This document shows, one piece after another, positions 1 to 64,000 of a stretch of DNA of 64,000 nt (position 1 is its first letter; every line of letters starts with the position of its first letter). A program made the position numbers and the translations under genes. The stretch is taken from NCBI GenBank assembly GCA_000151295.1, contig GG745347.1, forward strand, positions 56,038 through 120,037, given 5' to 3'. The notes beneath the pieces are model-generated. The model was not told the DNA's origin and made no database searches. It saw only the letters and a program-made list of their open reading frames with translations. Origin of the DNA: Allomyces macrogynus ATCC 38327 (lineage: Eukaryota; Blastocladiomycota; Blastocladiomycetes; Blastocladiales; Blastocladiaceae).

Positions 1-574
1 TTCCTCTAGCTCATCGCACATCTAACTCGTATCTTACTTCTATCGATCCCTATCACAGCCAGCTTATCTATTCATGCTCTGTCACGCCCTCTTGCCGCTT
101 CTCAACCACACCATGGCTAGATGACACATACCGCTCCTTGCGGTTTTCTCCTATCTCTTTGTGTTTTTCTTCCGAAGTTTTCTCTTTCTCCTATTGCCTA
201 AAACAAATGTCTCTCACGGACAGTGAGAAAGGGGCGGATAGGACAGGAGATTAAGATGGGGTGGGGGGAGTCGAGAAGGGGCAAACGTAATGGAAACGGA
301 ACGTTACGAAGCGAAGCGAAACGGAAGCGCAGACACACGACCGACACAGATAGGTGGGGGCCAAACAAAAAGCGGAAAGGAACGAGGACAGGAACGAGGA
401 CAGCACATCGGCACGGGACGGGGTATAAATGCAAGACTCCGTGCACGACGCGTCGCGGTAGGTCGGCCAGCGGGCGACCCGCTGGACAGCGAACCGCAGG
501 CGGCGTCGTGCCGGCGTCGTCGATGACACCGAGGCAACGACGGCGCGGCGACCGAGAGGCCGAAACAGACATGT
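1..574. other. 3' flank of the first gene, no gene seen
   Basis: No credible gene. The stretch is the 3' flank of the minus-strand gene ending at 575, with pyrimidine-rich sequence at 1-200. Open frames here are continuations of the unspliced upstream gene in GC-rich DNA. Confidence 0.5.
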
Positions 575-2884
575 TCATTGGCCTTGCAGGTCGGCGGCCA
601 CGTCCAAGCGCGGCTTCTTGGGCGACGAGGCAGCGCCTACAAAAACAAGCAACGGAAACGTCAGTCTCCTGCACCTTCGGAATCGGAAGCGGAGGAATGG
701 GTCGAAGCGTACCATCGTCCAACTCCAAGCCGCGCTTGCGCGACCCGTGCAGCGCATCCTCCACCGACGGGACTGCCGTGGGCGCGGCATCGCCCACCGT
801 CTCACTCGCGACCTCCTCGGTCTCTGCCCCCTCGGCCCGCATCGGTGCAAACAACGCCCCGCGGCTTGTTGCGGCCGCAACCGCACCCAGCGCCGCGCCC
901 ACGAGCGACGGCGACGCAGGCAATCCGGGCCTCGTCGGCGCCGCCACCGCCGCGCCCATCCGGGGACTCATTGGCGCCGACGCCGACATAGCGGCGACGG
1001 AAAACACCGACTGCTGCGGCGAGAGCGTGGGCGAGACCGTGCGCGACGCGCCGTACCGTGCCGGGAACACGTGGTCAGCCGTGGGCGACAGGACCGCCGG
1101 TGCCGCGGACCCCGACGAGGTGTTGTCGGTGACCGCGTCCTCCTCGTACGCGACGAGCCCGTCGTCGTCCTCGCCGTGCGCCTGCTGCGTTGACAGCACC
1201 GAAACGACCGGTGGTTGGTACCCGTTGGCCACGACCGCATCGACGGTCAAGGTCGGGTGCGCGACGGTCGCGTCGGCGGCGGGCACGGGCGAGACCGACG
1301 TCGGCGACGCCGGGAGCGAGGTGGTCGAGCAGGTGTGCGGCGGCGGGGTCGTCGTGGTGGTGGCCGGCGAGTGCGCCGGGGAAATCTGTGCGCTGGTCGG
1401 GGTCGTGGGGTGCGACTCACTGCTGGCCGGTGGTTGAACTTCTTGTGCGTCATTTGCGTCGGGAACGACCTCAGTTTGATGCTGCTGCGGTTGTGTGTCG
1501 ACGGGCCCGTCCAAGGCAAAGTCGTCGTGCTCAAATGAGACGTGCTCGTCGTCATTCCGGAGGCCGTCATGGTCGTCCTCGTCCTGCTCGAGCAATGCCT
1601 GCGCGCGACGCACCAGCTGGTCGAGTTTCCACTGTGCCGACTCGCCGAGGACCTGCAGCGTCATGGTGAGCGGCGTGTCCGAGTCGGGCTTGAGCGTGCG
1701 CAGTAGGTTGGCAAAGTTGACGAGGTGGTTCGAGTGGGCAATGTCAGTTTCCTGGCCGAGGGAAAGAAGAGAACAGAGGTCAGTGACTGTCCAAAGAGGG
1801 GCAGAGGGAGCACTTGAAAACGTACTTCGTGAATCGTAAGGCCTTCGAGATTGTCAAACCGCAAGGCAACCTCGGCCTGCGCGAGGCCAAAGTGCGCCTT
1901 GAGCTGGCGAATCAAGTCGTTGATGGGCTCGTCGTAGAACAGGTCAGTGGTGGCAAACAGCGCGGCGTCGGCGGCGTCTTGGTCGCTGAAGAGCGTGTAG
2001 ATGTGGTCGTCGTACTTAAGCAGCGCCGCTGCCTCGAGCTCTTCTTCGTCTTCTTCCTCACCGTCATGTTCTTGATGCTCCCCGGCGTCGCCATCCGACG
2101 ACGGCAACTTGCTAAACTCGAAGTCGTCGTCGTGGACGCCGTCGTGGTCGCTGTGAGACAGGTCAGACACGTGGGCCGCAGAATCAATGGAGCTGTCGGG
2201 AGCCTGCGAAGAAAGGAGAGAAGCAGCGGTCGCATCGGTCGGCGCAGCAGCCTCCACCGCGTCGTCCGTCTCAAACGACGGCAACGGCACCTCGGGCAAG
2301 TTGGTCGACGCGTGCTCGTTCATGGCCGAATCGGCCGAGTCCACGGTCGCCGCGACTGTGTCAGGCACGAGTGACTCCACCTCGGCTCTGGCCAGCGGCG
2401 GGACCGGTTCGGCGAGCACCGACGCGGCCGAGAGCGGGCTCACGGGCGTGGGGATCTGCGCGACGGGCGACTCGGACGACGACACCGCCGTCGACACCGA
2501 CTGCTGGTGCACGAGCGGGACCAGTGGCGCGAGCGGGTGCGCCGCAGCGTGCGGGCGAAACAAGGGCGAGACATGCGCGTCCGCGACCGGCGGGAGCTCG
2601 GCGCGCGCAACGGGCGTGGTCACGCCCATTTCCACGTCCGAGTCGTCAAACACATCGTCCATGACTGCCGATAGTGCGTCCTCGTCGTCGACGCCGGCGC
2701 CGTCGTTCATGATTGCGTCAACGTCATCGACGTGCACGTCAAGCTGCATGGCGTCGGCCGCGGTCAAGTAGGACGGCGAGTGCGCGGGGCTCGCGGCCAT
2801 GGGCGACGACGCGGGCGAGACGGCGGTCGCGGGCGACACACCGAGCGGCGGTGGCGCGAGAAGAGAGGCGGACAGCGACGACAT
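575..2884 (-). CDS. Unknown acidic, Ser/Pro-rich protein with a conserved-looking central module and C-terminal NLS-like tail
   Basis: Three exons inferred: 2884-1826, 1751-713 and 636-575, giving 719 aa. The introns (1752-1825, 637-712) begin GTACGT and GTACGC and end CAG and TAG. I do not recognise the family. Residues 1-270 are low-complexity and Asp/Ser/Val-rich. About 285-415 is a less biased module with LFYDEPINDLIRQLK, LEGLTIHEETDIAHS and LGESAQWKLDQLVRRAQ, probably alpha-helical. The rest is Pro/Thr/Ser/Ala-rich. The last exon supplies GAASSPKKPRL, a basic patch after RKRGLELDD that resembles a bipartite nuclear signal. The start is the ATG at 2884 (MSSLSASLL); the open frame extends further upstream but reads like leader. 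A nuclear regulatory role is only inferred from composition. Confidence 0.6.
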
Positions 2885-3631
2885 TTCAAGATATCGGCCG
2901 GAATGAAAAGGAGAAGGGGAAGCGGGCGGGTGGGAGGGACAAACGGGGCGGCGCAAGTCGAGCTTGCTTTGCGGGGAGGTGTTAGTGGGCGTACAGCGTT
3001 GTCGGGGCGGTACCGGGCTTGAGCTTGGGCAGGCTTGGAGGCAGGGTCGGCGGTCGCTTGGAGCGGGCAGACGGGAGCCAGAGCGCGCGGCGGCGGCAAT
3101 TATCAGTTGCAGAGCGTTTCGCGAGCGCGTTGCGGGCGGTTGCGGCAAGTGTGGAGAGCACGGTGGCGAGCGGTCGACGGCGTTGTTGACGGATCGGGAG
3201 CGAGGACGACACGAATGAAATGACGGTGTGGAAGTGCCGAGGACGGGAGCTCGAGCACGTTTTCAGGGTCAAAGCGCCAAACGAGAGCTACAACCAAGCC
3301 AAAAATTACGCTTTCCCCAAAGCATGCAGCCATTTTCGTCGGGCCGAGTGTGGACAACGTGCTCTCACGTGAACAAATGCTCAGTCAAAAGTGGAGCTTT
3401 TGCACGTCCAAGTCCCAGCCACCCGCAACTGCTGCTCGCGACAAGAAGTCCAAGAAACTGCCCCCGAAGCCGGCGCGATCGGGTGGAAAGGGTGGAGACA
3501 GACGTAAATATATCGAAATACAGACTCCAGTCACCGACTTGGACCCCCTTTTCATGGCAGGGCCCGGCCGGCGCGCCCCAAACCCATCTGCGCGCGCCGA
3601 ATGCCCTCCTCCTCGTGGTCGATCGGCAGCT
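2885..3631. other. Intergenic: promoter side of the first gene and 3' flank of the second
   Basis: Both neighbours are on the minus strand, so this 747-bp gap holds the promoter and leader of the gene starting at 2884 and the 3' flank of the gene ending at 3632. An isolated AT-rich patch lies near 3503-3525. No TATA box at the expected distance and no coding sequence recognised. Confidence 0.4.
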
Positions 3632-5300
3632 CTACTCGAGCATCTCGCCCGGCGCCGGCGCCGCGCTCGGAATACACTTGCGAATCGCGTCGAGTGCCGC
3701 CGTCTTTTCGCGCAACTGCAATTCGAGCACCTCGTTCTCGCGCTCGAGCCGCGCGACCTTGGCTTTCACGCGCTCCAATTCCTCGAGCACCATGGCCGGG
3801 TATCCCTCGCGCTTGAGCTGGTCGTTCTCGGCATGCAGCGCCGTGCACATGTGCTGCAAGTTGCGGAACTTGCCGTCCAAGTCGCCCATGGCCCGGTGCA
3901 ATGCGCCCTGGAACTCGTTGGCGACAACGGTCGTGTACTCGATGCTGAGCGACGGGGGCGGGACATAGACGGCCGGTTCCTACGCCGTCGATGATGGAAG
4001 TGAGAACCTAAACGCGATTGCGGGTGGAGAAGAGCTTGCATCAACACGCACAATAAACGGCCCCGCGTTCATGCGCATCGGCTGCGTCTGGTCGCGCCCG
4101 TCCTCATCGAACCGCCGCCGCTTGTACTGCAAGATCAGATCCGGCGTGGGCGACCGCGACCCGGCACGGACGCGGCGCCCGCTCGGACTCATCATGGCCT
4201 CGGGCGGCGCGGTCGTCGTTGTGCGGCGCGCCCTCTTGGACAAGTCGCGGCACTGCAATCCAAATCGACGCGACGTAGTGAGCAAACGAATCAAACACGC
4301 ACCCATCGCACCCTCAAATCCAACCCGTACCTTGACAATGTTGGCAATCTCCATGACCTTTTCCGGCACCGTGCCCTGCGCGACCGCTTCCTGCTCCAAC
4401 ACCTTGCGAAACTGCTGCGCCAAGAACACCTTCATCGGCTGCGTCAAATGATCAAACTCGGCATACACGCGTTGCCCATCAAACACGACCCAGACATGGT
4501 CACGGTCGTCCTTTTGAATCGACGAAATGTCGCCAGTCACGCGCTTTTTCAGGTTCTTCGAGGCCACTTCCATGAACCCGGCATGCACAAAGTACATGGG
4601 CGTCTGCGCGCCACAGACACTCGCCAAGTCGATTTCTGTGTGCCCGACACTCGGCGTATGCTGCTGCAGACCGAGCATCCCGGCGGAATTGCGCATCAGC
4701 GGCGTCGATGCGGCGCTTGAGAGATCGGCGGGCGAGTGCACGCGGCCGCCCGCGGGGGACATGTGCGGCAACCCGGCGAGCGCGGCCGCCGTCGTCGGGT
4801 CGGCGAGCGGGTGCATTGGCGGGTGCGGGATCGCGACGAGCGCGGCCAAGTTGTGCGCGGTCGTGACGGCGGGCAAGGTCGCGGCGGCCGCGGCGGCCGC
4901 GGCTGCCGCAGCCGCAGCCGCAGCTGCAGCCGAGGGCGTCGTCGGAGTCGCCGCCGCGCTCAGAAACTGCGAAATCGAGTCGAAGCGCTGCTGGTTCTGC
5001 GGAGAGGTCGTCAGCGCCGGTGGCGGGAGCGGATGTTGCTGGTGCTGGTGCGGTTGTTGTTGCTGCTGGTGCTGCTGGTGCTGCTGCTGCGCGAGTACGT
5101 GCGCCTGCGAGCCCGCCGTCGTGGCGGCAATATGCTGCACGGCTACATGATGCGAGGGACGATAAGGAATGGATGCGAGTCTGCGAAGATGGCGGGAAGA
5201 GAAGCGTACTTGGCACAGGAGCCATACTCAGGCCGGGGATTTGGCCCTCCATGGTCGCGGATAATTCTGGGTCATGGAGGACCATTTGCCGCAAACACAT
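3632..5300 (-). CDS. Unknown Gln/His- and poly-Ala-rich protein with C-terminal coiled coil
   Basis: Four exons inferred: 5300-5210, 5142-4331, 4252-4052 and 3979-3632, giving 483 aa. Introns begin GTACGC, GTACGG and GTGCGT; phases are 1, 0 and 0. The N-terminal third has a Gln/His tract (AQQQHQQHQQQQQ) and about 17 consecutive alanines. Residues ~195-300 look folded (PMYFVHAGFMEVASKNLKKR, DHVWVVFDGQRVYAEFDHL). A basic, Arg-rich linker (KRARR, YKRRRFDEDG) follows. The last ~85 residues form a heptad-like coiled coil (LEELERVKAKVARLERENEV). The layout suits a transcriptional regulator or chromatin-associated protein, but I cannot name a family. The first in-frame ATG is at 5300; an ATG at 5252 (MEGQIPG) is an equally possible start. 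The 78-nt second intron is stop-free, so retention cannot be excluded. Confidence 0.6.
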
Positions 5301-6006
5301 TAGCTTCCATTGGTAATTGATGTTGGTGCTGCCTGCTGCACGCCAATCGAGTGCGCTTCGCCCGACGCCGTTTCCGATGCTCTTGCTTCGCGACGCTGTT
5401 CAACGGTATTGAAACATCATTGGACGGTGGCGGCCATTATTGGTCGTCATCGGCAGCCAAACAAGAGCCCATCCAAACCGGGTGTCGTCGCGAAGCGATA
5501 GGAAGCGGAATAGCTGATCTCGATGGTGGCGGCATTGGACGCGCGCTCGCTCGCGCTCGTGCAGCAAGAGGGGAATGACCATGTTTACCGGCCGGATGTG
5601 TTATTATTGCAGCGCAAAGAGAGGATGGACTAACGCAGTTGGGTGGATGGAAGCGATGGATGCTTGGTTGCCTTGCCTTTGTTGCTGCGGCAGGCCACAA
5701 ACGTTGACCAAACAAGACTCCAAAAAGGTGGCGGACTGTGCATTCGAATACGTCACGTGTGAATGACCAGCGCGAACAGCCATCATCGAGCGTTGAGGGT
5801 GCCGTGCTCGCGAGGTTGACGATGTTTTCGCGCACTACTGCCGACGATGAGCGAACGGGCGTAGCCGGGCGTGGCCGACGGCGATGAGCGAGCGTGGCCA
5901 ACGATGTTGCTGACGGCGACAAAATCCTGACAAACGAGACACCCTAAATTGTCCTCCACGAAATAGATATCAACCATGCCGCACATCCGACCCACGTTCC
6001 CTCTCC
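5301..6006. other. Intergenic: promoter side of the Q/A-rich gene and PEX5 3' flank
   Basis: A 706-bp stretch without a recognisable gene. It lies upstream of the gene starting at 5300 and downstream of PEX5. Short GA/CG-rich near-repeats (gatgagcgagcg-like) occur at about 5845-5900. Confidence 0.4.
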
Positions 6007-8285
6007 TTACGCGCCATGCGACGCATCAAACGCGGCCCTCAGCGCGCCCAGGTCGCGCGTATCGCACAGCGCGGCCCAATCCGACTTGTTCATGAGCAGC
6101 GTCGCCATCTTGAGCGTTTCCCAGACATTGGCCGACATGAAGCCCGACGTCACATTATTCGCGGCCGCCTGGATCGACAGTGCCTCGAGCAAATGGTGCA
6201 CGGCCTCCGAGTGCTGGCCGAGGTTGATGCACGCAATCGCCAAGTTGTACCGCGCGCGAATATACGACGGGTTAATCGCCAGCGCGTGGAAGTAGGCGTC
6301 CATGGCGCGTGACGCCTCGTGCGAGTTGGCCAGCGTCGCGCCCAACTTGTTCCACAGCAGGTAATCGCCTGGCCGCTGGTTGAGCGCGGCCTGGAAACAG
6401 TCGACGGCCTTGGTGTACTCTTCGGAGACGTTGAAGAGCACGCCGAGCCCGGCCTGCACATCGGCGTCGATCTCGCCGTCGACCGAGTGCTGCACGGCTT
6501 CCAGGTAGAGGTTGAGCACGTCGCGCATCGAGTCGCCCGTCTTGACCACGTTCGACTCGAGATGCGCGTACTTAGGGTTGTTGTGGATCCATTGCCGCAG
6601 CGAGTCGAACGCTGGTTCCGGGCGCGACTCGTTCGTGTAGGAAACGGCCAGCGCGAGCCATCCGTCGAGCAACGTCGGGTTCTGCGACATGGCGCGCCGC
6701 AACGCCGCAATCGCCTGCTGCTCGCGCTCGTTTTCCTGCTGCTTGGTGCCTATCGTCGATCGCAAGGTGAACACGCGTATCCGGCCACAAGAAAAGGGAC
6801 AGGAGGAAAGCGTACCCAGCAACATCCACGAATGCGCATCGGCCGGGTTCTTGGCCACCCGGGCCTCGAGCAACAAAATCGCGTCCGACAGCGACAACCC
6901 CTCGATCGGGACCGCGTCGAGCGCCTGCGGCGACTCCGACAAGAAATGATTCGCCGGCTCAAACTGGTACTCTTCGTACTCAGGCACTTGCGCGTCCCAC
7001 GAGTTGTAGAGTTCCATCTCGGCCTGCGCCTTTTGAAACTCCTGGAACCAGTCGCCGTCCGACATACCCGCGCCGAAATCGGGCATATCAAACTGCTCGG
7101 CCCAGTCAGCCTCGATGCCCTGCGCGGTGCCCGCACCTTGCTCAAACTCCTTGGTCCACATCGAATCGACAAACCCGTCGGCGTGCGCCTGGAACTGGTC
7201 GGCCCAATCGGCGGTGCCCGCCGGCTTGCCTTTCCCCTCGACGACCTTATCCCCTTCGATCGTGAGTTCCTCGTCGCGCAGCTTTTGCATGAACTTGACA
7301 AACTCGGAGTTGGCAAACTTCGGGTCGTCGGTCTCGACCGAGTTGAGCAGTTCGGCCGCGGTCTTGGCCAGGTCCGATTTCGTCGCATCGGCCGGCTGCG
7401 CGGCCTGGAACTCGTCAATCCACTGCGCGGCCTGCGCCTCCTGCTGCTGCGCAAACTCGGCCTCCCACGTCGCCGGCGGCGTGGGGGCCGCACGCGCTTC
7501 CTGGAACGCGCGGTCGAGCGCGGCGTGGTCTTCGGCCGAGAGAACGACGGGCCGCTGGTGGTGCTGGAACTGCTCAAACTCTTGCGCCCAGGCTACGCAA
7601 ACCAAACCTGCACGTCAGTCGCAATCTCTCCCTCGTCCGGCAACCGCGGACGAACGTGGCGTACCTGCCGGCGGCGCAAACGCAGCCGCGCGGTGCGCGT
7701 CGCGTGCCGTCTGGAACGCCGCATCAAACTTGGTCATATCGTCGCGCGACAGACCGGGCGCGGGCCCCTGGAACTGCACGAATTCCGCGTGCCAGTCGGC
7801 GGGTCCGGGCCGCTGCATCTGCATCTGTGCGCCCGGTGGCGGTGGTGGCGGCGCGTGGATCGCGTCCAAGTCGCGGTGCATGTCGCGGAACCCAAACAGG
7901 TCGTCTTGCGGCATGCGTGCCGCGGCGACGCGCGACGACGACGGGCCGGCCGACGCGCGCAGGAATTCCTCGGCGAGCTATGTGGGTTGCTAAGGTCAGG
8001 GGGGGGGGGGGGGGGCGGAACCAGCCGGAGCAGGGTGGAGACCGCGAACGTGAGGCGTACCTCTTGCTGGCGGATGGCATCTTGCGTCTGCTGCTGTTGC
8101 CGGAGCTGCAAGTAACGAGCGCAAACGCGGTGTCGTCAGCAGTCCGCTCGTGGTGGTCGCAGAAGCGGAGCACGGGCGACGCGGAGGCGTACATGGCGCG
8201 AGGCCTGGCCAAACGAGTCCTGGAACGTGTCCTGGTCGAGCTGCTGCTTGAGCGAGGCCAGCGGGTTGACGGGGCCGCAGTCCAT
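6007..8285 (-). CDS. PEX5: Peroxisomal targeting signal 1 receptor PEX5
   Basis: Cytosolic shuttle receptor that binds C-terminal SKL-type signals through TPRs and docks at the peroxisomal importomer. Five exons inferred: 8285-8193, 8105-8061, 7977-7665, 7592-6816 and 6749-6007, giving 656 aa. The start is fixed by MDCGPVNPLASLKQQ, which has the conserved near-N-terminal Cys (C3, the recycling ubiquitination site in this family) before an NPL motif. The N-terminal half carries eight WxxxF motifs (WHAEF, WAQEF, WEAEF, WIDEF, WADQF, WTKEF, WAEQF, WFQEF), the PEX14/PEX13-binding elements. The C-terminal half has TPRs, e.g. WMLLGTKQQENEREQQAI, LAVSYTNE and LWNKLGATLANSHEASRAM. All introns start GTACGC; intron 2 holds a 17-nt homopolymer. 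Exon phases (0,0,1,1) restore a continuous family-like protein. Confidence 0.93.
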
Positions 8286-56509: not shown

Positions 56510-56759
56510 CGTGGTGCAGCTGGTTGGTGCAATTGACTGCGAAAGAGTCTGAAACTGACAATGTTGATCAACGGTCGACAGACCGGCCAGATCCGGTATG
56601 CATCAACGAAGAGACGCGCCCCCAACGTGCGGTGGAAGGTGCCTGTCGCAACCATTGTGCGCCGCGTGATCGTTCTCTACCGCAATCCTACACAATCCAG
56701 TCCGGTCGTCGAACAACCATCAGCGCCAGCACGACAAGCGCACAAATTTTGATTCTTAT

Positions 56760-58800
56760 GGAGTGAGACTACTGACGTTTAAGGAGATCTCCTGGGCTTC
56801 TGGCAGCTAGTTCTGGTCGCATCACTTGGAATGATGCTCTTCTTAAGGCAAACACATCACATTTCTCATTATATTTCCAATTCAAGGTGGATTGATTTGC
56901 TCACCCACTCCCCGGTTCCGTGAAAAAGAGAAAAAATCGTGGTACTTGGTCAAATGGTAGCTTGAGCTTGCTTCTTCATGCATGATGCACCTGTGCACAG
57001 TGTCTTGTGTCAAGTTGAGTCAAAAGTTGGTCTGGTTGTCATCTTGACACAAAATGCACAATTGATGCAGCTGCATGGCCAAGGGAAGAAACTCCTCCAC
57101 ATGAGAAACGTTTTGGTGTGGCAGGTTCTTGAGCATTAAAACCAAGGAGCAAATTGTTGGCACAAGATGGTGGAGCAGGCTTGGGTGGATGGCACCAAGC
57201 CTGTCCAGCCACAAAGTCATGAGGCATGGGAATGGAGCCATCCAGAGCACGTCAAAATCAGACTGCTTGGCGCACACGCCCAGGCCCAAATCACATAGCT
57301 GGGCGTGTGGGATACTGGCAAATATGCATTCCTTGAGTGCAAAGCAGCTTAGACTGTCAATCATAAGCGTGAGATGCTCAAGCTGTTGCTGCAACTACAA
57401 GAATGACACCAAGTACATGTTGCTCTTGTTCAGGATTTGAACGTGAAGAAACAGGTGGTGGAGTGCAAATGTTGAGACAACATCAAAAATCCATAACCAT
57501 GCACTGTGCATGACAGTCACACAGTGCATTTGGTGGATGTAGAGTGAGGTGAGACACAGCAGAATGCACTAGTTGGTGAGCACGGTTTCATGGACAGCAA
57601 GACAGGGTGGGAGCATTGGTGGCAGGAATGGCGTCAAATTGCAGAAAGGGACCTCAGCATGGCATGGGTCATCAAGAAGTATTGTGGGTAAGCCTAACAA
57701 CAAGAATGGTCCCATGTGCATCAGTTCCCCATGCCATTGTGGTGTGATGATGGCCAGTGCAAAGTCACTGTCAAAGACAATGTGCTCACCATGAGCACTC
57801 TCTGGATTGAGCTGCATCAGGTTAGCAAGAATCGTGCTGGTTTGTCTGTGATTGACACTGGGAAAGAGCAGGTTGTTGGCTTCCAGTGGCAAGGGGTGGC
57901 ACAAGTTTGTCATTGCCATGAATTTCTGGGTCAAACAGATGCAAGCATCAGCTACAGTGACATAGAGATGCAGTGATATGTTGGCAAGCTGAACAAGCGT
58001 CCTGGGACTCTGAGTGTCAAGAGATGCAAGGCTGGAGCTTGTTGGGCAGGCGCTCAAGCATGGCACAAGATGAAATTTTGTTGGCAAGTGATGTTCAGCA
58101 ATCCTTCTTGATGCATTTGCAGGTAGAAGTTGTTATTCGCCTTCTTGTTGGTATCCATGGCTAAGGTAGATAATCAAGACACAAACCAAGCAACAAGGGT
58201 GGAGGGTTGACAATGTTGGTAAAGAGGGATGAAAGGCATCAACAGACAACAGCAATCATGACGGCTCTTCCTGGATATTAACAAGGGAGGCTTGGTTCAG
58301 ATGGCTTGTATCCACTGCTGTCCTTTTGGGCTTGGCTGTGGTGTTCTGGTCAAGCGCCAATGCTGTTGGTCTACCAAAAGGACGTCACCACAACTTGTTC
58401 ATGACAAGTCCCTCTCATTGGTGATCTTCTGCCACCTGCCTGTATCAATGCAATGACTGCATACTTGGCCATGTGGTTGCACTTTGCCAGTCTCACCACT
58501 ATTTTCCACCAGTTTATGTCATTATCTCTCATTCATCAAATGAGAATGATCATGGTCTTTACATCTGTTACCATGACCAGGCATACCAGGCACCATTCCC
58601 TGGTCCACACTCTCCCACATGATGCAGTCTCTGTTGATGCACCACAAGCAGTTGCCAATTTGGACTCCATGAGCCACCAGGTGGCCATAAAGCATCAGCA
58701 CAACAAGACCAAGCCAGGAGTGTGGAACACAGTGGAGTGAAGAATGATTCAAGCTCTGACATAAGTTGAACGCGTCAAGACATGGTCACTGTGCAAGAAA
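56760..58800. repeat. CpG-depleted decayed element (block 2)
   Basis: A second block poor in CpG and rich in TG/CA. I count about 21 CpG in 56761-58740, with none between about 58385 and 58770. Minus-strand frames (57020-57394, 57569-58087) are the longest; neither matches a family I know and both have Leu/His/Met-rich composition typical of decayed sequence. No clear similarity to block 1 could be established by eye beyond composition. It ends abruptly next to the palindrome and tandem repeats that open the virus-like segment. No terminal repeats were identified. Confidence 0.6.
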
Positions 58801-58836
58801 GCACCTGGCCTGTGGACTTTAGGGATAGGTGTTCAT

Positions 58837-58863
58837 GTGTCGTATACCGCCGGTATACGACAC
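58837..58863. repeat. 27-bp near-perfect palindrome
   Basis: Two 13-nt arms (GTGTCGTATACCG and CGGTATACGACAC) are exact inverted copies around a single central C. It lies at the junction between the CpG-poor block and the tandem repeats. A dimeric recognition site for a recombinase, replication initiator or repressor would look like this; function is not shown. Confidence 0.85.
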
Positions 58864-58867
58864 TTGT

Positions 58868-59055
58868 CCAGCCATACCCCCAACTGCCCGCGACAGTACT
58901 GTCGCGACAGTGCAGTACCAGCCATGCCTGGCACTGCCCGCGCCCCCACCTCGACAGTACAGTGCCAGCCATGCCAGACACTGCCCACGACACTGTAGCT
59001 ACGGCCGTGTCAGCCATGCCAGGAAGTGCCCGCGCCCAGGGGCGACAGCCCCGCC
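58868..59055. repeat. Four tandem ~47-bp repeats with embedded GACAGTACTGTC palindrome
   Basis: CCAGCCATRCC starts copies at 58868, 58918, 58965 and about 59010, each followed by an ACTGCCCRCG-like stretch and a GACAGTA/GACACTGTA element. Copy 1 contains the perfect 12-bp palindrome GACAGTACTGTC (58892-58903). GC-rich, unlike the genes that follow. Iteron-like layout. Confidence 0.75.
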
Positions 59056-59266
59056 CGCCCCCGCAGGTGGTAGCGTGACCCGGGTCAGTCTGGGAGCCTC
59101 CCAGCGACACCATCCATAACCTAATCGAGGAGCGCGTCACTGACGGCGCTGCGCACCCCGACCGGCGAGCTGGGGACTTGGAGATTATTCGGTGAAAATA
59201 GCAAGGAGCAGTTCGGGGAAACGTTCGAGAGCCCATTGGTCACGGGGACCCGTTCTTTGAAAATCG

Positions 59267-59330
59267 CCTAGTTGTAACAAATTTGGGGGTAGAGTATAGA
59301 TATTCTCTGTCCGTTTTTGTTACAACTAGG
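59267..59330. repeat. 15-bp inverted repeat with 34-nt loop
   Basis: CCTAGTTGTAACAAA (59267-59281) is repeated exactly inverted at 59316-59330. The loop contains the partly symmetric AGAGTATAGATATTCTCT. It lies about 190 bp beyond the stop of the minus-strand primase-helicase gene, so it may act as a transcription end signal, a replication structure or an element terminus. Confidence 0.8.
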
Positions 59331-59518
59331 GAATTTTGTTCTGTGTTGGGGGTTCAGAGTAGGGGGGGCACCCAAACGTGTTGCAAAAACGAATCGTGGG
59401 GATTTGTCGTTGTGGGGGCCATGAGGCTCCACGCAGCGCAGCGGAGTAGGAGAGATGGCCGTCGTGGAAAGGATTCGGTGTATTTTTTACGGAAATTCAA
59501 TGAAAACAAACAAGGGGA

Positions 59519-62479
59519 TTACTCTTCGTCCTCTTCCTCTGACAACTCCAAAACAAACGCGGTCTTTCCTTGCTTTTCTTCCTCAATGCCAGTGGTGTAA
59601 AGATGGTACAGGCGAAACAAGTCAGCACCTTCATCTGTCCACTTGATGTTCGGGTATGGCTTGCGCTCAATCCAGACTCGGTGCTTATTCGAATCCTGCT
59701 CCAGGACCCGCTTGCCAAAGTACACGTTGAACATCTTCATGATGGTGGTTGCATTGAGTGACTTGAGCAAAGCCACTTGCTTGAAATCACTCGACAAGGC
59801 CAAGCGCAAATGTTCAGGGACGTGAGAAGTGACAGGAAAATCCTCGTCTTCCCCAATCTTGATGGCGTTGTGAGCAATGACCTTGTGCAACACATGGTTC
59901 TTGTCAGACTTGTAAAATTTCGAACACTGGTCAAAGAAATCCTCGCCTCGATAGTTCCACAGTGCAGCCATGTCGTCTTCCCCAAGGTACTTGCCATAAT
60001 GACCCTTGAACATGAACTTGCGAATTCCAAGCCATGTTTCCCATGAAGGTTCGTCGTCATCCGTGTTGAAGTGGTGCTCCAACACATCTTCCTCGACTTC
60101 TTCAATGTTTTTCCAGAGACACGTGAGCGCGCCACATTCCTCGACCGCCTTGAGACCAGGATTCAGGTCATAAAAGTAGTCGGGGCCAGCGCGAATGTTG
60201 ATGCAAGCCATTTTTCGAAAGACTTCAAAAACGCTGGCACTCGATGCGCTCTCATTCATGTCCATTTCGAGCTGTGCATTCTTGATGATGGCCGCATGCA
60301 TTTCTCGGACCTCGCCAATGTCGATTGGCTTGAGTCGAGGCGTCAGCCCATTTTTCTGCCCCTGTGTCGACATGTACACGATTTCGTTATCCTTGGGGTG
60401 GCGAATCCTGTAAATGGCTTGGAAAAAATCACGAGGCGCCACCCAATCTTCGTATCGAGCGTAGACCTTGTCAAACACGTTGCGCAGTGAGAAGTTGACC
60501 CCAACCGTGATTTTTGTGTTGGCGACAACAACTCGAACCTCATCACTGGCCCACACGTTGTCCGGGTCAATGAGCTCCTTGAGTTCGTGCTGGGGTCGGT
60601 CGCCATGGTAGACCTTGATTTGTTTTCCAATTGTCCAATCAAACTGGCGTGCAAGATACTCACCAAACGACTGCACAGACCAAATCCCCTTGTTGTCGAC
60701 CTTGCGTGGAATAAAGACATACAGCTTCTTTCCCTGTGACAAGTCGTTCAGGATATTCATCTTGAAAAACGTTTCGTCAGTGACAGCCTCGCCATTTACA
60801 TGCCGACCCGTCAGCTTTGACATGACCCTGGGTTGGAAATCCTCGGGTAGTGTGTTGCGAACCACATTGACGTGACCAGCAAGATGCTCGTTGATTTTCG
60901 TCGGCTTGTAGACTGCTGAGATGAATTCCATGGTGAGTTGCGTGATGAATGCATCCATGAAAATGCACAGCTTGGATTCGGTAATCATTCTCTTGATTGC
61001 AAGGAGATTGCCAGCAAAATTGTTTTGCCGCTTTGTCACATGAAGCTTGTCCGTCAAATACATTTGCAAGACGGTCTCGCTTTCGTCAATGACAATGTAG
61101 TCGTATGGCTTGTTGAGGTAGTGCAAAGAGCATGGCGAGCAAATCAGATGCTGGAACGTGTCCAGTGTGGACTTGTCCTTGACTGTTTTGTAGTGCTGGA
61201 AATGGACAAGCCGACCTTGGGTGTTGTAGGCAAGCGTGATGCGGGGGGTAATCCAGAGAACGCGCGAATCGGGGTGGGCCTCGATGAATTCAGCCACGGC
61301 CCCTGTCTTGTTTGACCCCATCCCAGTGGCCAGCACGTTGAATTTCTTGGTCCCGTCAATGTCAGCCCCCTGCAAATACTGCCGAGGAACAGTCTTGGTT
61401 GCTTTCACACGAGTTGACGCGCGAAATTTGCGCAACGCCTTGGATTTGAGTGCGGATGGCCAGAACTTGGCATAGATTGCCTCGATGAAACGGGTTGTGA
61501 TGTTGTATGGCGATTTTTCCAGGTCCTTCCAGTATCCCCAGTAACGGGCGACTCGTGCAGAGTGTGGCTCATCCGACTTGCTCTTTTGACTGTTCCACGT
61601 CATGAAATCGTCAAAGGTGATTCCCTGCTTGTTTGCCCAGACCATGACTCGCCAAATCACACTGTGAGATAGCCGGTTCTCGTTTCCATCAAGCGGAATG
61701 TTGTTGAGGATTTCCAACGGCGTTGCGTCATAAAAGAAAAAGTCGAGGTCCCGCTTCTTGGGGGTGAGCACTTGAATGTCTGCAACAAAATCAGGAGCCT
61801 TGGACTTTGCGCCCTTGGGCTTGACTGGCTTTGGAAACGTCAACGTGTTGATGTCAATGCACTCTTCGTCAAAATCGTACTGAATAAGATGCTTGGACAA
61901 CTCCTTTGAGCCTTCAATGTAAATGCCTGTATCTGCACGTGGCTTCGACTGGTTGATGCACTTCATCAGGCGATTGCTTGAGTAGACCGACGCATCAAAC
62001 CCAAGGTCCTGCGTGTTTTCCTCTGCGAAATTCTTGAGCTTCCAAATGTCAGCAAATTGAACAGTGTAATTCGACAGCGTGATGTGATACGAGTGCTTGG
62101 TTTCGGTCTCGTATCCACAAATCTGCATGTTTGCACCTGGGAACTGTCGAAGAATACACGCCTTGACGTCTTCGAGTTGAAGCAATCCCAGCTTGTCATC
62201 AACGTCAAAATACACCTTGAACAATCGCGAATTTACAAGGAGTTCAAACAGATTGTGGTTCCGTTTCAGCAACCTGAGCAAATGCTCGGGAGTAGTGCTC
62301 GAATATGCATTCCAGTCTTGTCCAACTCCTTTGTTGATTATCTTGACAATGGGGATGTGGTCATCGGGCAGGTTTTGCAACACGTGGGCCTGGGGCCCGT
62401 CCTCTGAATTTTTCGTGCTCTTCTTTCCTGAAAACCACTGGAGGCCATGGTAGCGGGTCTTGACTTTGAAGACGGTCAT
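59519..62479 (-). CDS. AEP primase - UL9/origin-binding-type SF2 helicase fusion, virus-like
   Basis: Intron-free 986-aa frame with lower GC than host genes. An N-terminal archaeo-eukaryotic primase is indicated by KVYFDVDDK (DVD at 92-94), KHSYHITL (SYH at 130-132) and DASVYSSNRLMKCINQSK (162-179), the three AEP motifs in order. A C-terminal helicase of the herpes-type origin-binding family follows: ATGMGSNKT (Walker A, 384-392, with Asn where Gly is usual), RVLWITPRITLAYNTQGR, YIVIDESETVL (DExx, 461-471), ANTKITVGVNFSLRNVFD and DFFQAIYRIRHPKD (motif VI). The tail is acidic. AEP plus UL9-like helicase fusions are known from nucleocytoplasmic large DNA viruses, where they are thought to prime and unwind at replication. 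It is divergently paired with the zinc protein at 62615. No breaks or stops, so it may be intact. Confidence 0.85.
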   Translation of the reverse strand: MTVFKVKTRYHGLQWFSGKKSTKNSEDGPQAHVLQNLPDDHIPIVKIINKGVGQDWNAYSSTTPEHLLRLLKRNHNLFELLVNSRLFKVYFDVDDKLGLLQLEDVKACILRQFPGANMQICGYETETKHSYHITLSNYTVQFADIWKLKNFAEENTQDLGFDASVYSSNRLMKCINQSKPRADTGIYIEGSKELSKHLIQYDFDEECIDINTLTFPKPVKPKGAKSKAPDFVADIQVLTPKKRDLDFFFYDATPLEILNNIPLDGNENRLSHSVIWRVMVWANKQGITFDDFMTWNSQKSKSDEPHSARVARYWGYWKDLEKSPYNITTRFIEAIYAKFWPSALKSKALRKFRASTRVKATKTVPRQYLQGADIDGTKKFNVLATGMGSNKTGAVAEFIEAHPDSRVLWITPRITLAYNTQGRLVHFQHYKTVKDKSTLDTFQHLICSPCSLHYLNKPYDYIVIDESETVLQMYLTDKLHVTKRQNNFAGNLLAIKRMITESKLCIFMDAFITQLTMEFISAVYKPTKINEHLAGHVNVVRNTLPEDFQPRVMSKLTGRHVNGEAVTDETFFKMNILNDLSQGKKLYVFIPRKVDNKGIWSVQSFGEYLARQFDWTIGKQIKVYHGDRPQHELKELIDPDNVWASDEVRVVVANTKITVGVNFSLRNVFDKVYARYEDWVAPRDFFQAIYRIRHPKDNEIVYMSTQGQKNGLTPRLKPIDIGEVREMHAAIIKNAQLEMDMNESASSASVFEVFRKMACINIRAGPDYFYDLNPGLKAVEECGALTCLWKNIEEVEEDVLEHHFNTDDDEPSWETWLGIRKFMFKGHYGKYLGEDDMAALWNYRGEDFFDQCSKFYKSDKNHVLHKVIAHNAIKIGEDEDFPVTSHVPEHLRLALSSDFKQVALLKSLNATTIMKMFNVYFGKRVLEQDSNKHRVWIERKPYPNIKWTDEGADLFRLYHLYTTGIEEEKQGKTAFVLELSEEEDEE

Positions 62480-62614
62480 CTTTACAGGTTACCTAGAAAA
62501 AAAAGCTGGGGAGTCGTCCCTACTTATGCGTTTGCGTTTAGCGTTCAGACCCCCGTGTGTTTTTTTCGTTTTGCAAATTAAGTCCTGTAACCCACTAGTT
62601 GGTAATACACTAGG
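62480..62614. promoter_or_regulatory. Compact divergent promoter of the virus-like segment
   Basis: 135 bp separate the two divergent starts. It contains an A8 run (T8 on the minus strand) about 15-30 bp before the primase-helicase ATG, and a CACTAG motif twice within 35 bp of the zinc-protein ATG. Short, AT-rich, intron-free spacing is virus-like and unlike the host promoters in this window. Confidence 0.5.
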
Positions 62615-63358
62615 ATGAACGACATTCACATCAAGTCCAGCCCAGCATGCAGCTACTGGTGTGCAAAACCAGGAAACCAAAACCCAAAATTGTCAGTGCA
62701 GCGAATCCATATTCGACTTTCAGAGCTGCTTCAGATGCCATTGTACGAAATTGAAGAGGGAGCCAAACTTCGGACTTTGCTTGAAGGATTCAAACGCATT
62801 GGGCATGTCGAGAAATCGAATGCTGACGAGCCCCTCACATGCATTTGTGGAATCCATGTCAGCGAGGTCTGGATTATTGGGGACGAAAACACGAACGTTG
62901 GAATTGGGTCAAAATGCATTGAACGAATTGATGCAGCCATGGGGGACCAAATCAATGCTGAAATCAAGCAACGCAACCGGAAAACATTTGATTGTGCCCC
63001 ATGTGGAAAGCGACACCGAAAAGAGGATGGGTGCCCTTTGCAAAAAATGCAAATTGTGAAATCACCACCTCTTCCCACCCCAGAAATCCCGAGTACCCCA
63101 CCACCACCCTACACTGAAGCCCCCCCATCGAAAAAGTGTGTGAAATGTACAAAACCCAATACCACAAAATACGCCACATGTTTGTCATGTATTCAGCAAG
63201 CAAAACGCTGCACGGGAAATGGCTGCACAAAGCTCGTCTTCAACCCCAATCACAACGTTTGTTACAATTGCCATCTCAAACAATCAGGCGCAACAAGACA
63301 ATGTGCGTGTGGTCGATACATCAAGGGGAATTACACGCTGTGTTTTGGATGTAAATAA
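62615..63358 (+). CDS. Multi-zinc-ribbon protein of the virus-like segment
   Basis: Intron-free 247-aa frame. An N-terminal helical region (QRIHIRLSELLQMPLYEIEE) leads into LTCICGIHVSEVWIIGDENT followed by NVGIGSKCIERI. This CxCGxxI...iGSxCI pattern is one I associate with short Cys domains in large DNA virus proteins (recollection, not a search). A CAPCGKRHRKEDGC knuckle and a Pro-rich linker follow. The C-terminal ~75 residues hold at least three CxxC pairs (CVKC, CLSC, CYNC, CACG, CFGC) in treble-clef or ribbon spacing. Nucleic-acid or protein binding is inferred from the zinc sites. It shares the divergent promoter with the primase-helicase. No host homologue recognised. Confidence 0.7.
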   Translation: MNDIHIKSSPACSYWCAKPGNQNPKLSVQRIHIRLSELLQMPLYEIEEGAKLRTLLEGFKRIGHVEKSNADEPLTCICGIHVSEVWIIGDENTNVGIGSKCIERIDAAMGDQINAEIKQRNRKTFDCAPCGKRHRKEDGCPLQKMQIVKSPPLPTPEIPSTPPPPYTEAPPSKKCVKCTKPNTTKYATCLSCIQQAKRCTGNGCTKLVFNPNHNVCYNCHLKQSGATRQCACGRYIKGNYTLCFGCK

Positions 63359-63422
63359 TCGATGGTGCGTTTTCCATAAATATTCTCTCATCCCCTCAGT
63401 AAAAGCGACACTCATCAAAACA

Positions 63423-64000
63423 ATGTCGACATTCACCAGCCAGCAACTCGTTGAACAGCACTGGGGTGCTTTCCTTGAAAAGAAGAAGAACGACACTGGT
63501 TCAATTGGTGTCTATGACAAGCTGCTGCAATTCTTCAAAGACCGCAACATCAATTTGCTCGACCAAGAGGCAACACTGACCACCATTGATGGCCTTGAAG
63601 TGAATCGACAGTTCATGGCAAACTACACAGCGACATTCGTGAATTATCTGGCGACGGTCCACGACGAATTCAAGGAATTAGCCAGTGGCTATTCGCTCTT
63701 TGCAAAGACCATGGACATGTTGCGACAAGAGAAAAAGAAACAGCAATCACTCCCTTACCAGATGCACGAGGTTCAGGCAAAGTTGGACGAGTGGTCGCCC
63801 CAACTCCCAACATACAGAAAACGCAACAAGGAGTCAATTGTCGCGGCGTTGCTTCAAGGACACTTGGCTTTGCGATGTGATATTGCCATGATTGTCAATG
63901 ACGAGCCGCACACTGAGCTACCATATGTTCTTGCTGACGAGCCCTGTGTCATGGTACCGCAGCCAACAGGCAAGGTTTCAAACAAGGCTTATGACGGGCA
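63423..64000 (+). CDS. Unknown protein of the virus-like segment, cut by the window edge
   Basis: Open from the ATG at 63423 to the last base with no stop, at least 192 codons. It starts MSTFTSQQLVEQHWGAFLEK and continues with helical, charged sequence (TATFVNYLATVHDEFKELAS, MLRQEKKKQQSLPYQMHEVQ) and then more mixed sequence. The preceding 64-bp gap contains AATATTCTCT, also present (as GATATTCTCT) in the loop of the inverted repeat at 59267-59330. No family recognised; an N-terminal part of a larger structural or replication protein is possible. Confidence 0.6.
   Translation, partial: MSTFTSQQLVEQHWGAFLEKKKNDTGSIGVYDKLLQFFKDRNINLLDQEATLTTIDGLEVNRQFMANYTATFVNYLATVHDEFKELASGYSLFAKTMDMLRQEKKKQQSLPYQMHEVQAKLDEWSPQLPTYRKRNKESIVAALLQGHLALRCDIAMIVNDEPHTELPYVLADEPCVMVPQPTGKVSNKAYDG

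Follow-up and report, generated by a model that had tools for sequence, protein, structure and literature searches.

The right-hand end of the 64,000-nt stretch of the Allomyces macrogynus ATCC 38327 genome analysed here (the window; contig GG745347.1, positions 56,038 to 120,037, part of contig C56 in the 54.0-Mb, 75-contig assembly) raises the question of what kind of DNA begins at position 58,838 and how such DNA copies its ends. Judged from its sequence, this DNA is an endogenous polinton-like virus (PLV) of a blastocladialean fungus, starting at 58,838 in the Allomyces genome. We consider it likely that the linear extrachromosomal genome of this virus replicates via hairpins formed by terminal palindromes and is then inserted by an RVE integrase. 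An earlier note on the window had proposed a virus-derived, potentially self-replicating element, and this proposal is borne out; at other places in the genome, the layout is found again between terminal repeats and 5-bp duplications. Plain numbers below are window positions; positions elsewhere are preceded by the contig.

Gene content and identity of the element

The visible part of the element extends from C56:114,875 to C56:129,823 (14,949 bp), with masked sequence beyond, and over the last 172 visible bases it is 98.8% like the subterminal region of the related C65 element. The gene order starts with a terminal repeat and a leftward gene for a 986-aa replicase, which combines an archaeo-eukaryotic primase (AEP) with a superfamily 2 (SF2) helicase (AEP-S2H). 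It continues with three rightward genes, whose products are a Cys-rich protein (247 aa), a tyrosine-recombinase-like protein (416 aa) and an rve integrase (401 aa), then a leftward gene for a 650-aa repeat protein, and then rightward genes for a 568-aa protein, a 267-aa A32 packaging ATPase, a 406-aa capsid protein and proteins of 85 and 252 aa, after which the inner right terminal repeat is reached. None of these ten frames is interrupted in the window copy. Within 15 kb, the search to the right of 64 kb that the earlier note had recommended found the integrase, the ATPase, the double-jelly-roll capsid protein, further conserved genes and the inner portion of the right repeat; PLV genes, and not the ordinary spliced host genes that it had named as a refuting outcome, occupy this region.

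Both the ATPase (Pox_A32, 4.1e-12) and the integrase (rve, 1.3e-9; 31 residues between the second D and the E) scored above the Pfam cut-off. A Pfam scan of the 406-aa protein gave no match of weight. An AlphaFold2 model built from 22 sequences (pLDDT 74, pTM 0.77; an earlier model from 8 sequences was discarded at pLDDT 43.6) was matched by Foldseek to the double-jelly-roll capsid proteins of PBCV-1 (2.1e-16), mavirus (major capsid protein, MCP; 2.5e-11) and PRD1 (P3; 1.9e-10), and 101 BFVD entries were matched at E 0.001 or better. By its predicted structure, the 406-aa protein is a double-jelly-roll capsid protein. The 252-aa gene lies downstream of the MCP gene, in the place of a minor capsid gene, and was also found in the related elements C58, C65 (in part), C41, C48 and C73; DUF5901 was the sole match of the C48 homologue. 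No protein-primed type B DNA polymerase (PolB) was found among the visible unmasked ORFs of the window element, and a genome-wide search of the unmasked sequence with PF03175 gave no match above the cut-off and one sub-threshold match, on another contig. Because the element carries an A32 ATPase, an rve integrase and a double-jelly-roll capsid protein, and its visible ORFs are without a protein-primed PolB, we regard it as a PLV, and neither as a strict polinton nor as a giant-virus fragment.

The replicase is encoded in an unbroken frame, as the earlier note had described, and the two domains named there were also recovered. The C-terminal part is a UL9-/origin-binding-type SF2 helicase (Pfam Herpes_ori_bp, 7.7e-10), and the N-terminal part carries KVYFDVD (from residue 88), S-x-H (130-132) and K173 in KCINQSK, which we take to be the AEP motifs. 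In an alignment of the query with 17 relatives, D92 and D94 are invariant, and S130, H132 and K173 are at least 90% conserved. The best database match was an A. macrogynus ATCC 38327 protein (98% identity, with 73% of the query aligned), and a search of solved structures yielded no match. Among 48 relatives, the 20 with an organism name belong to Allomyces, Blastocladiella or chytrids, and 28 are unnamed environmental sequences. One of the named relatives, 30% identical and aligned to 66% of the query, is the S2H protein of 'Powellomyces chytrid fungus MELD virus 2'. Like the window element, the chytrid 'MELD' viruses are virus-like elements of zoosporic fungi with a primase-SF2 helicase.

Two other origins of the replicase have to be weighed here. 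That it belongs to an endogenous fragment of Nucleocytoviricota, one of two options offered by the earlier note, is most improbable. An AEP primase is combined with a UL9-like SF2 helicase in mimivirus, African swine fever virus (ASFV) and some mriyaviruses (PMC11253617), a D5 primase-helicase of A. macrogynus has been taken as a sign of giant-virus infection (PMC5294986), and the 28 unnamed relatives are environmental. However, the gene lies in a unit of ~15 kb with its own terminal repeats, an rve integrase and PLV-type genes, the sister elements C41 and C48 measure 16,471 and 15,008 bp with their terminal inverted repeats, within the 15-40 kb range of PLVs, and the 20 named relatives are fungal or PLV-like. 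A Pfam scan of the ten ORFs of the ~15-kb element gave no PolB, RNA polymerase, VLTF3 or similar giant-virus core gene, the search for RNA polymerase and VLTF3 being confined to these ORFs. The giant-virus fragment was rejected on the PLV layout to the right of the window, and the other option of the earlier note, a smaller self-replicating element carrying the replicase gene, is the correct one. Still less credible is an ordinary host gene inherited vertically in fungi; the relatives in Allomyces, Blastocladiella and chytrids would suit it, but copies of the gene lie inside terminal-repeat elements together with capsid genes, sister elements are flanked by target duplications, and the relative P0040 is annotated as viral. 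The host gene was rejected on this element structure.

Homology to several other genomic copies starts at 58,837-58,838, which sets the left border at 58,838. A chimeric assembly at 58.8 kb, named as refuting in the earlier note, is unlikely because the identical border sequence is found at other loci, there with target duplications. Compact ORFs from 58,838 rightward, the 135-bp gap between divergent genes, and a palindrome with tandem repeats at the border (a 25-nt palindrome, 38-nt direct repeats and a 22-nt inverted pair) are present as that note had reported. The drop in GC content that it placed at 58.8 kb is real, but it begins at ~56.5-56.7 kb (from 0.60 to about 0.47-0.50), and in its outermost part the element is GC-rich (0.57-0.62). 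The stretch 59,235-59,499 recurs inverted within the element at C56:129,386-129,651 (98.9% over 266 columns). The features within the window are as follows.

58838..58862: terminal palindrome at the left end, with 12-bp arms and 1 central base, beginning with TG
58838..59499: left terminal inverted repeat, its outer part common to other copies; 97% to the C65 termini
58855..59034: four degenerate 38-nt direct repeats in the terminal repeat, 61-100% to the reference copy
59260..59337: internal inverted repeat with 22-nt arms in the inner terminal repeat, also in the C58 copy; a possible cis-acting site
59519..62479, minus strand: replicase, N-terminal AEP primase and SF2 (UL9-like) helicase, 986 aa
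62480..62614: divergent intergenic region of 135 bp between the replicase and the rightward genes
62615..63358, plus strand: Cys-rich protein, 247 aa, zinc-ribbon-like by eye
63423..64000, plus strand: start of the 416-aa divergent tyrosine-recombinase-like protein, which ends at C56:120,710, past the window

The 247-aa Cys-rich protein had no Pfam match; it is present in the four copies of lineage A (defined below) and in the lineage-B element C48 (55%). The 650-aa leftward protein (C56:121,881-123,833) contains repeated short motifs and appears fibre- or receptor-like by eye, with look-alikes in C41, C48 and C61. To the left of the border, ~56.7-58.8 kb (56,700-58,836) is a separate low-GC sequence, ~760 nt of which are 72% like C53:123,763-124,522; it is probably a repeat that was already present when the element was inserted within or next to it.

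Terminal palindromes and insertion sites

Four elements, C56 (the window element), C58, C65 and C41, have the terminal repeat of the window element in common and constitute lineage A. Lineage B was defined by the 674-bp terminal repeat of C48, the one lineage-B element that was read nearly whole. A 25-nt palindrome is present at eight of eight lineage-A ends, with 12 of 12 arm pairs in all seven ends first read and equally perfect at the C58 right end. One type of arm is found in C56, C65 (both ends), C51 and C24, and the 25 nt of the window palindrome are repeated at the four other ends of this type with C or G as the central base. The second type, at both ends of C41, differs at 5 of the 12 arm positions, each compensated on the opposite arm; the same arms are found at the C58 right end, where the central base is A, versus T in C41. 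Within the 64 kb of the window, 58,838-58,862 is the only perfect palindrome with 12-bp arms (spacer 0 or 1), and its hairpin fold has a predicted energy of -9.7 kcal/mol (z -5.2). Six sampled ends folded as single-stranded DNA at -9.7 to -16.3 kcal/mol; no shuffled sequence was as good for five of them, and 1 of 200 was for C41. The ends at C24:295,066 and C51:13,838 have no capsid or replicase match nearby and represent solo or truncated elements; the former is 2 kb from the contig end, and the latter has masked sequence inside.

A recognisable palindrome of 25-27 nt was also found at 31 of 35 lineage-B ends, which were read out of at least 56 terminal-repeat matches (C75:53,838 and C56:940,855, where the match starts from query base 26-27, and inner repeats were left out). 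Covariation was analysed in the 24 ends with a length of 26 nt (21 distinct), palindrome lengths being picked by best pairing; five ends of 27 nt, two of 25 nt with a one-base bulge and the four without a palindrome were left out. In this set, 94.0% of cells are paired versus 28-46% in slid controls, double changes occur in 23 cells versus a shuffled mean of 8.7 (reached by 0 of 500 shuffles), and the covariation score is 0.316 versus 0.131 in shuffled sequences (0 of 500 as high). To judge from these end sequences, the terminal palindromes are kept by compensating changes.

The central dinucleotide of the 24 lineage-B ends is TG in 12, CA in 8, CG in 2 and TA in 2. TG and CA, which are reverse complements of each other, are the sole non-self-complementary centres seen. 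Left and right palindromes were compared in seven informative pairs; C41b (wrong register, centre the same both ways) and C55 were not used, and C56, C58, C57 and C64 lack one readable end. The two palindromes are inverted relative to each other in three of the seven elements, namely C58b (C58:836,890-851,898; 0 mismatches inverted, 3 direct), C48 (1 inverted, 3 direct) and C65 (0 inverted, 1 direct), whereas the direct orientation fits better in C72 (0 vs 2), C74 (0 vs 2), C61c (2 vs 4) and C41 (0 vs 1). The adjoining 60 nt of the repeat show 0 or 1 difference in the six pairs compared, C41 being outside that comparison. As far as these ends tell, the self-complementary terminal sequence is present in both orientations, and hairpin-forming palindromes in both orientations may be a sign that the virus copies its ends through hairpins.

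Eight of the nine elements with both ends readable are flanked, beside TG...CA, by an exact 5-bp target duplication (C65 AAACG, C41 GTTCA, C48 GGTGG, C58b TCATT, C72 TAATA, C74 GTGAG, C61c GATGC and C41b GAGCG), which is the product expected of an rve integrase.

Related elements and exchange of replicases

Genome-wide searches yielded 30 matches at 27 loci for the capsid query (three loci were split in two), 32 for the ATPase, 20 for AEP-S2H and 40 for the integrase, the weakest of which are possibly retrotransposons. Capsid proteins outside lineage A are 24-36% identical to that of the window element. Compared with C56, C58 is 97% identical in the replicase, 42% in the tyrosine-recombinase-like protein, 96% in the ATPase and 73% in the capsid protein; the corresponding values for C65 are 98% (over 967 residues, beside a masked stretch and with one stop), 99%, 84% and 73%. 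Lineage A is, on these comparisons, a mosaic.

AEP-S2H is missing from C41, where its position is taken by a replicase with a superfamily 3 (SF3) helicase that is 62% identical to that of C48, a 773-aa protein matched by DUF5906 (4.9e-18) and by a P4-type primase C-terminus (1.3e-8, below NCBI's cut-off); the SF3 replicases are of 771 aa in lineage A (L016:2395-4710) and 773 aa in lineage B (L029:2558-4879). Since C41 carries this replicase despite an ATPase 96% identical to that of the window element, the replication gene has been exchanged between resident viruses. The two 1,699-bp terminal repeats of C41 are 100% identical, as expected of a recent insertion or a recent conversion. At C60:635-645k, C55:33-47k and C31:402-404k, pieces of AEP-S2H (broken or in parts), mostly 67-84% like that of the window element, were found with lineage-B-type repeats, an apparent replicase exchange in the opposite direction; at C60, a capsid gene of the 30%-identity type is present as well.

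A further lineage is represented by C73:2,050-2,066k, which contains AEP-S2H (28% to that of the window element), an rve integrase, a capsid protein (29%) and a tyrosine-recombinase-like protein split over two overlapping frames; no long terminal repeat was found in the stretch read. In Blastocladiella emersonii, capsid homologues (P0001-P0007), with one cluster of 26 member sequences, were found, and a large family of PLVs is probably resident in this fungus. Among environmental virus contigs, the capsid queries matched none and the AEP-S2H query matched one. That contig, IMGVR_UViG_3300010885_082318, contains the AEP-S2H gene, an ATPase-like gene (by eye) and a perfect 6.4-kb palindrome (1-6434), which is perhaps a real head-to-head junction or else an assembly or amplification artefact and was not used as evidence.

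Replication of the ends

A second, probable recombination enzyme of the element may bear on its ends. In the 416-aa protein family, R259, H285 and Y294 are invariant (six aligned proteins), the box-I Arg (R151 in LRCD) is kept in six of seven proteins and is Gln in one, the box-II His is replaced, and a Lys stands 1 or 2 residues ahead of a conserved Tyr (HKYPI, from 193), not in one alignment column. The conserved R...R...H...Y order is that of tyrosine recombinases, presuming that we have assigned the motifs correctly. A weak integrase match was obtained against PHROG (0.046). A profile of the family matched 12 phage tyrosine integrases at a score of 39.3 (P 7.2e-5, probability 62.7%), the R, H and Y positions of the two falling in register, whereas 200 column-permuted profiles reached at most 25.6, the reversed profile 12.3 and four other profiles at most 18.9 (three of these four are capsid alignments, and the four represent two families). 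The 416-aa protein is a probable divergent tyrosine recombinase.

In the mechanism that we favour, each end of the linear extrachromosomal genome would form a hairpin by folding back at its palindrome of 25-27 nt, and the primase-helicase (AEP-S2H in the window element, the SF3 helicase in the sister element and lineage B) would help replication round it. Two copies would thereby be joined head to head through one palindrome, and resolution of the junction would leave either palindrome orientation at either end. The ends would then be opened and copied out (TG...CA), and the RVE integrase would insert them with a 5-bp staggered cut. The best candidate within the element for cutting or resolving the palindrome is the divergent tyrosine-recombinase-like protein; the AEP domain or the host could supply the copying polymerase. 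A more specific version, which we put forward only tentatively, holds that these fungal PLVs, with a linear genome and no protein-primed polymerase, have hairpin telomeres, their 25-27-nt flip/flop hairpins being opened or resolved before rve insertion by their own tyrosine-recombinase-family enzyme, which would be a eukaryotic analogue of a telomere resolvase; replicase modules (primase-SF2 versus SF3) would be exchangeable here because the mode of replication would be set by the ends and not by the replicase.

Recombinases commonly have two-fold terminal sites, and the palindrome could accordingly be a two-fold binding site of the integrated PLV for an integrase, origin-binding protein or recombinase dimer, forming no hairpin, with the orientations arising by point mutation or CpG decay. 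TG and CA are decay products of CG, which is the centre of some ends, and four of the seven informative pairs are not inverted. We nevertheless find this explanation unlikely. A binding site should be kept in sequence, yet the arms differ strongly between the lineages, with compensating changes in lineage B. In addition, the two ends differ at three neighbouring positions in C58b (TTG vs CAA) and in C48 but agree throughout the adjoining 60 nt, and after inversion all three differences disappear in C58b and two of the three in C48; CpG decay cannot yield TTG versus CAA in C58b. A different question is whether the tyrosine-recombinase-like protein acts on the ends at all. In some endogenous virophages, a tyrosine recombinase is encoded in addition to an rve integrase, and the pair has been interpreted as two enzymes for integration (PMC8547959); a second integrase unrelated to the ends, inserting for example into a giant-virus or circular genome, is a serious possibility with somewhat less than an even chance. 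Against it, eight of the nine readable insertions are rve-like, with 5-bp duplications and TG...CA; duplication-free insertions were not searched for systematically.

Several observations weigh against hairpin replication itself. All end data come from one genome, and the outer right end of the window copy is masked. Four of the 35 lineage-B ends have no palindrome, and C55 has no target duplication, its two ends possibly stemming from different insertions. The equal orientation at both ends in four of seven pairs fits random orientation and is no proof of inversion, and CpG decay of CG could explain part of the TG and CA counts. The structure was derived from the same sequences and is thus favoured over the slid controls; the covariation signal is carried by three column pairs, and the shuffles ignore relatedness. 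Three pairs changed on both sides, a number equalled by 478 of 500 shuffles, and the 13 further pair types were equalled by 79 of 500. As the palindrome-bearing lineages use different replicases, the ends do not point to AEP-S2H. Regarding the 416-aa protein, there was no Pfam or NCBIfam match of weight, the profile match to tyrosine integrases is weak in absolute terms (63%), searches of solved structures with tyrosine-recombinase-like proteins gave nothing or one chance ribosomal match (0.22), and comparison with the N15 telomere enzyme detected no relation.

Parvoviruses and N15-type phages have hairpin-ended linear genomes. Asfarviruses, poxviruses and phycodnaviruses likewise have terminal self-complementary sequences in flip/flop orientations (PMC11788076, PMC8956199). 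Here, by contrast, the palindromes are 25-27 nt long and occupy the outermost bases of the long terminal repeats in rve-integrated elements of ~15 kb. Asfarviruses pair flip-flop hairpin ends (PMC11788076) with the AEP-SF2 protein pF1055L (PMC11253617) and thus with the same type of replicase; this is an analogy, yet SF3-replicase elements also have palindromes.

The kind of element is known: PLV-like viruses with primase-SF2 helicases have been described, and PLV genes of A. macrogynus were already reported in 2021. Bellas and Sommaruga (2021, PMC7805220) described MCP, ATPase and DNA helicase genes of integrated viruses in this species or a near relative; in the text passages compared here, tables and supplements apart, neither borders, terminal repeats, target duplications and palindromes nor the type of replicase and the number of copies are given for Allomyces. 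Primase-SF2 helicases have been described in a meldvirus (PMC11071296), mriyaviruses, mimivirus and ASFV (PMC11253617), and replacement of replication proteins among virophages and PLVs has also been described (PMC11071308). Meld19810 (PMC11071296, preprint) similarly combines a primase-S2H with a tyrosine recombinase and adintovirus-type virion proteins; its legend names the tyrosine recombinase only, whereas the window element has an rve integrase and the divergent tyrosine-recombinase-like protein. The mavirus-like endogenous virophages of Cafeteria (EMALEs; PMC8547959) share terminal repeats, the rve integrase and, in some types, both enzymes; their target duplications are mostly 3-5 bp, with 5-6 bp cited for mavirus. 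They differ in belonging to the virophage lineage, and the text of PMC8547959 does not contain 'palindrom'.

In our literature search, PLVs or polintons were not joined with terminal hairpins, flip/flop ends or protelomerase, most subscription papers being outside the search, which is no proof of absence; the hairpins in the available text of PMC6260650, PMC12747079, PMC11788076, PMC11172284 and PMC6723459 are those of giant viruses or polyadenylation signals. Because no terminal hairpins of PLVs emerged from it, we rate the end structure with flip/flop terminal palindromes as apparently unreported in PLVs.

The copying of linear genome ends in PLVs without a protein-primed PolB is, to our knowledge, an open question, as is the reason for a tyrosine recombinase beside the rve integrase in some virophages and PLVs. 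Flip/flop palindromes that are kept by compensating changes across replicase types would provide a concrete answer on end copying, testable in a culturable fungus. The genome in which they are found shows, in addition, an apparently recent insertion, with 1.7-kb repeats that are 100% identical, and swapping of replicases between resident viruses.

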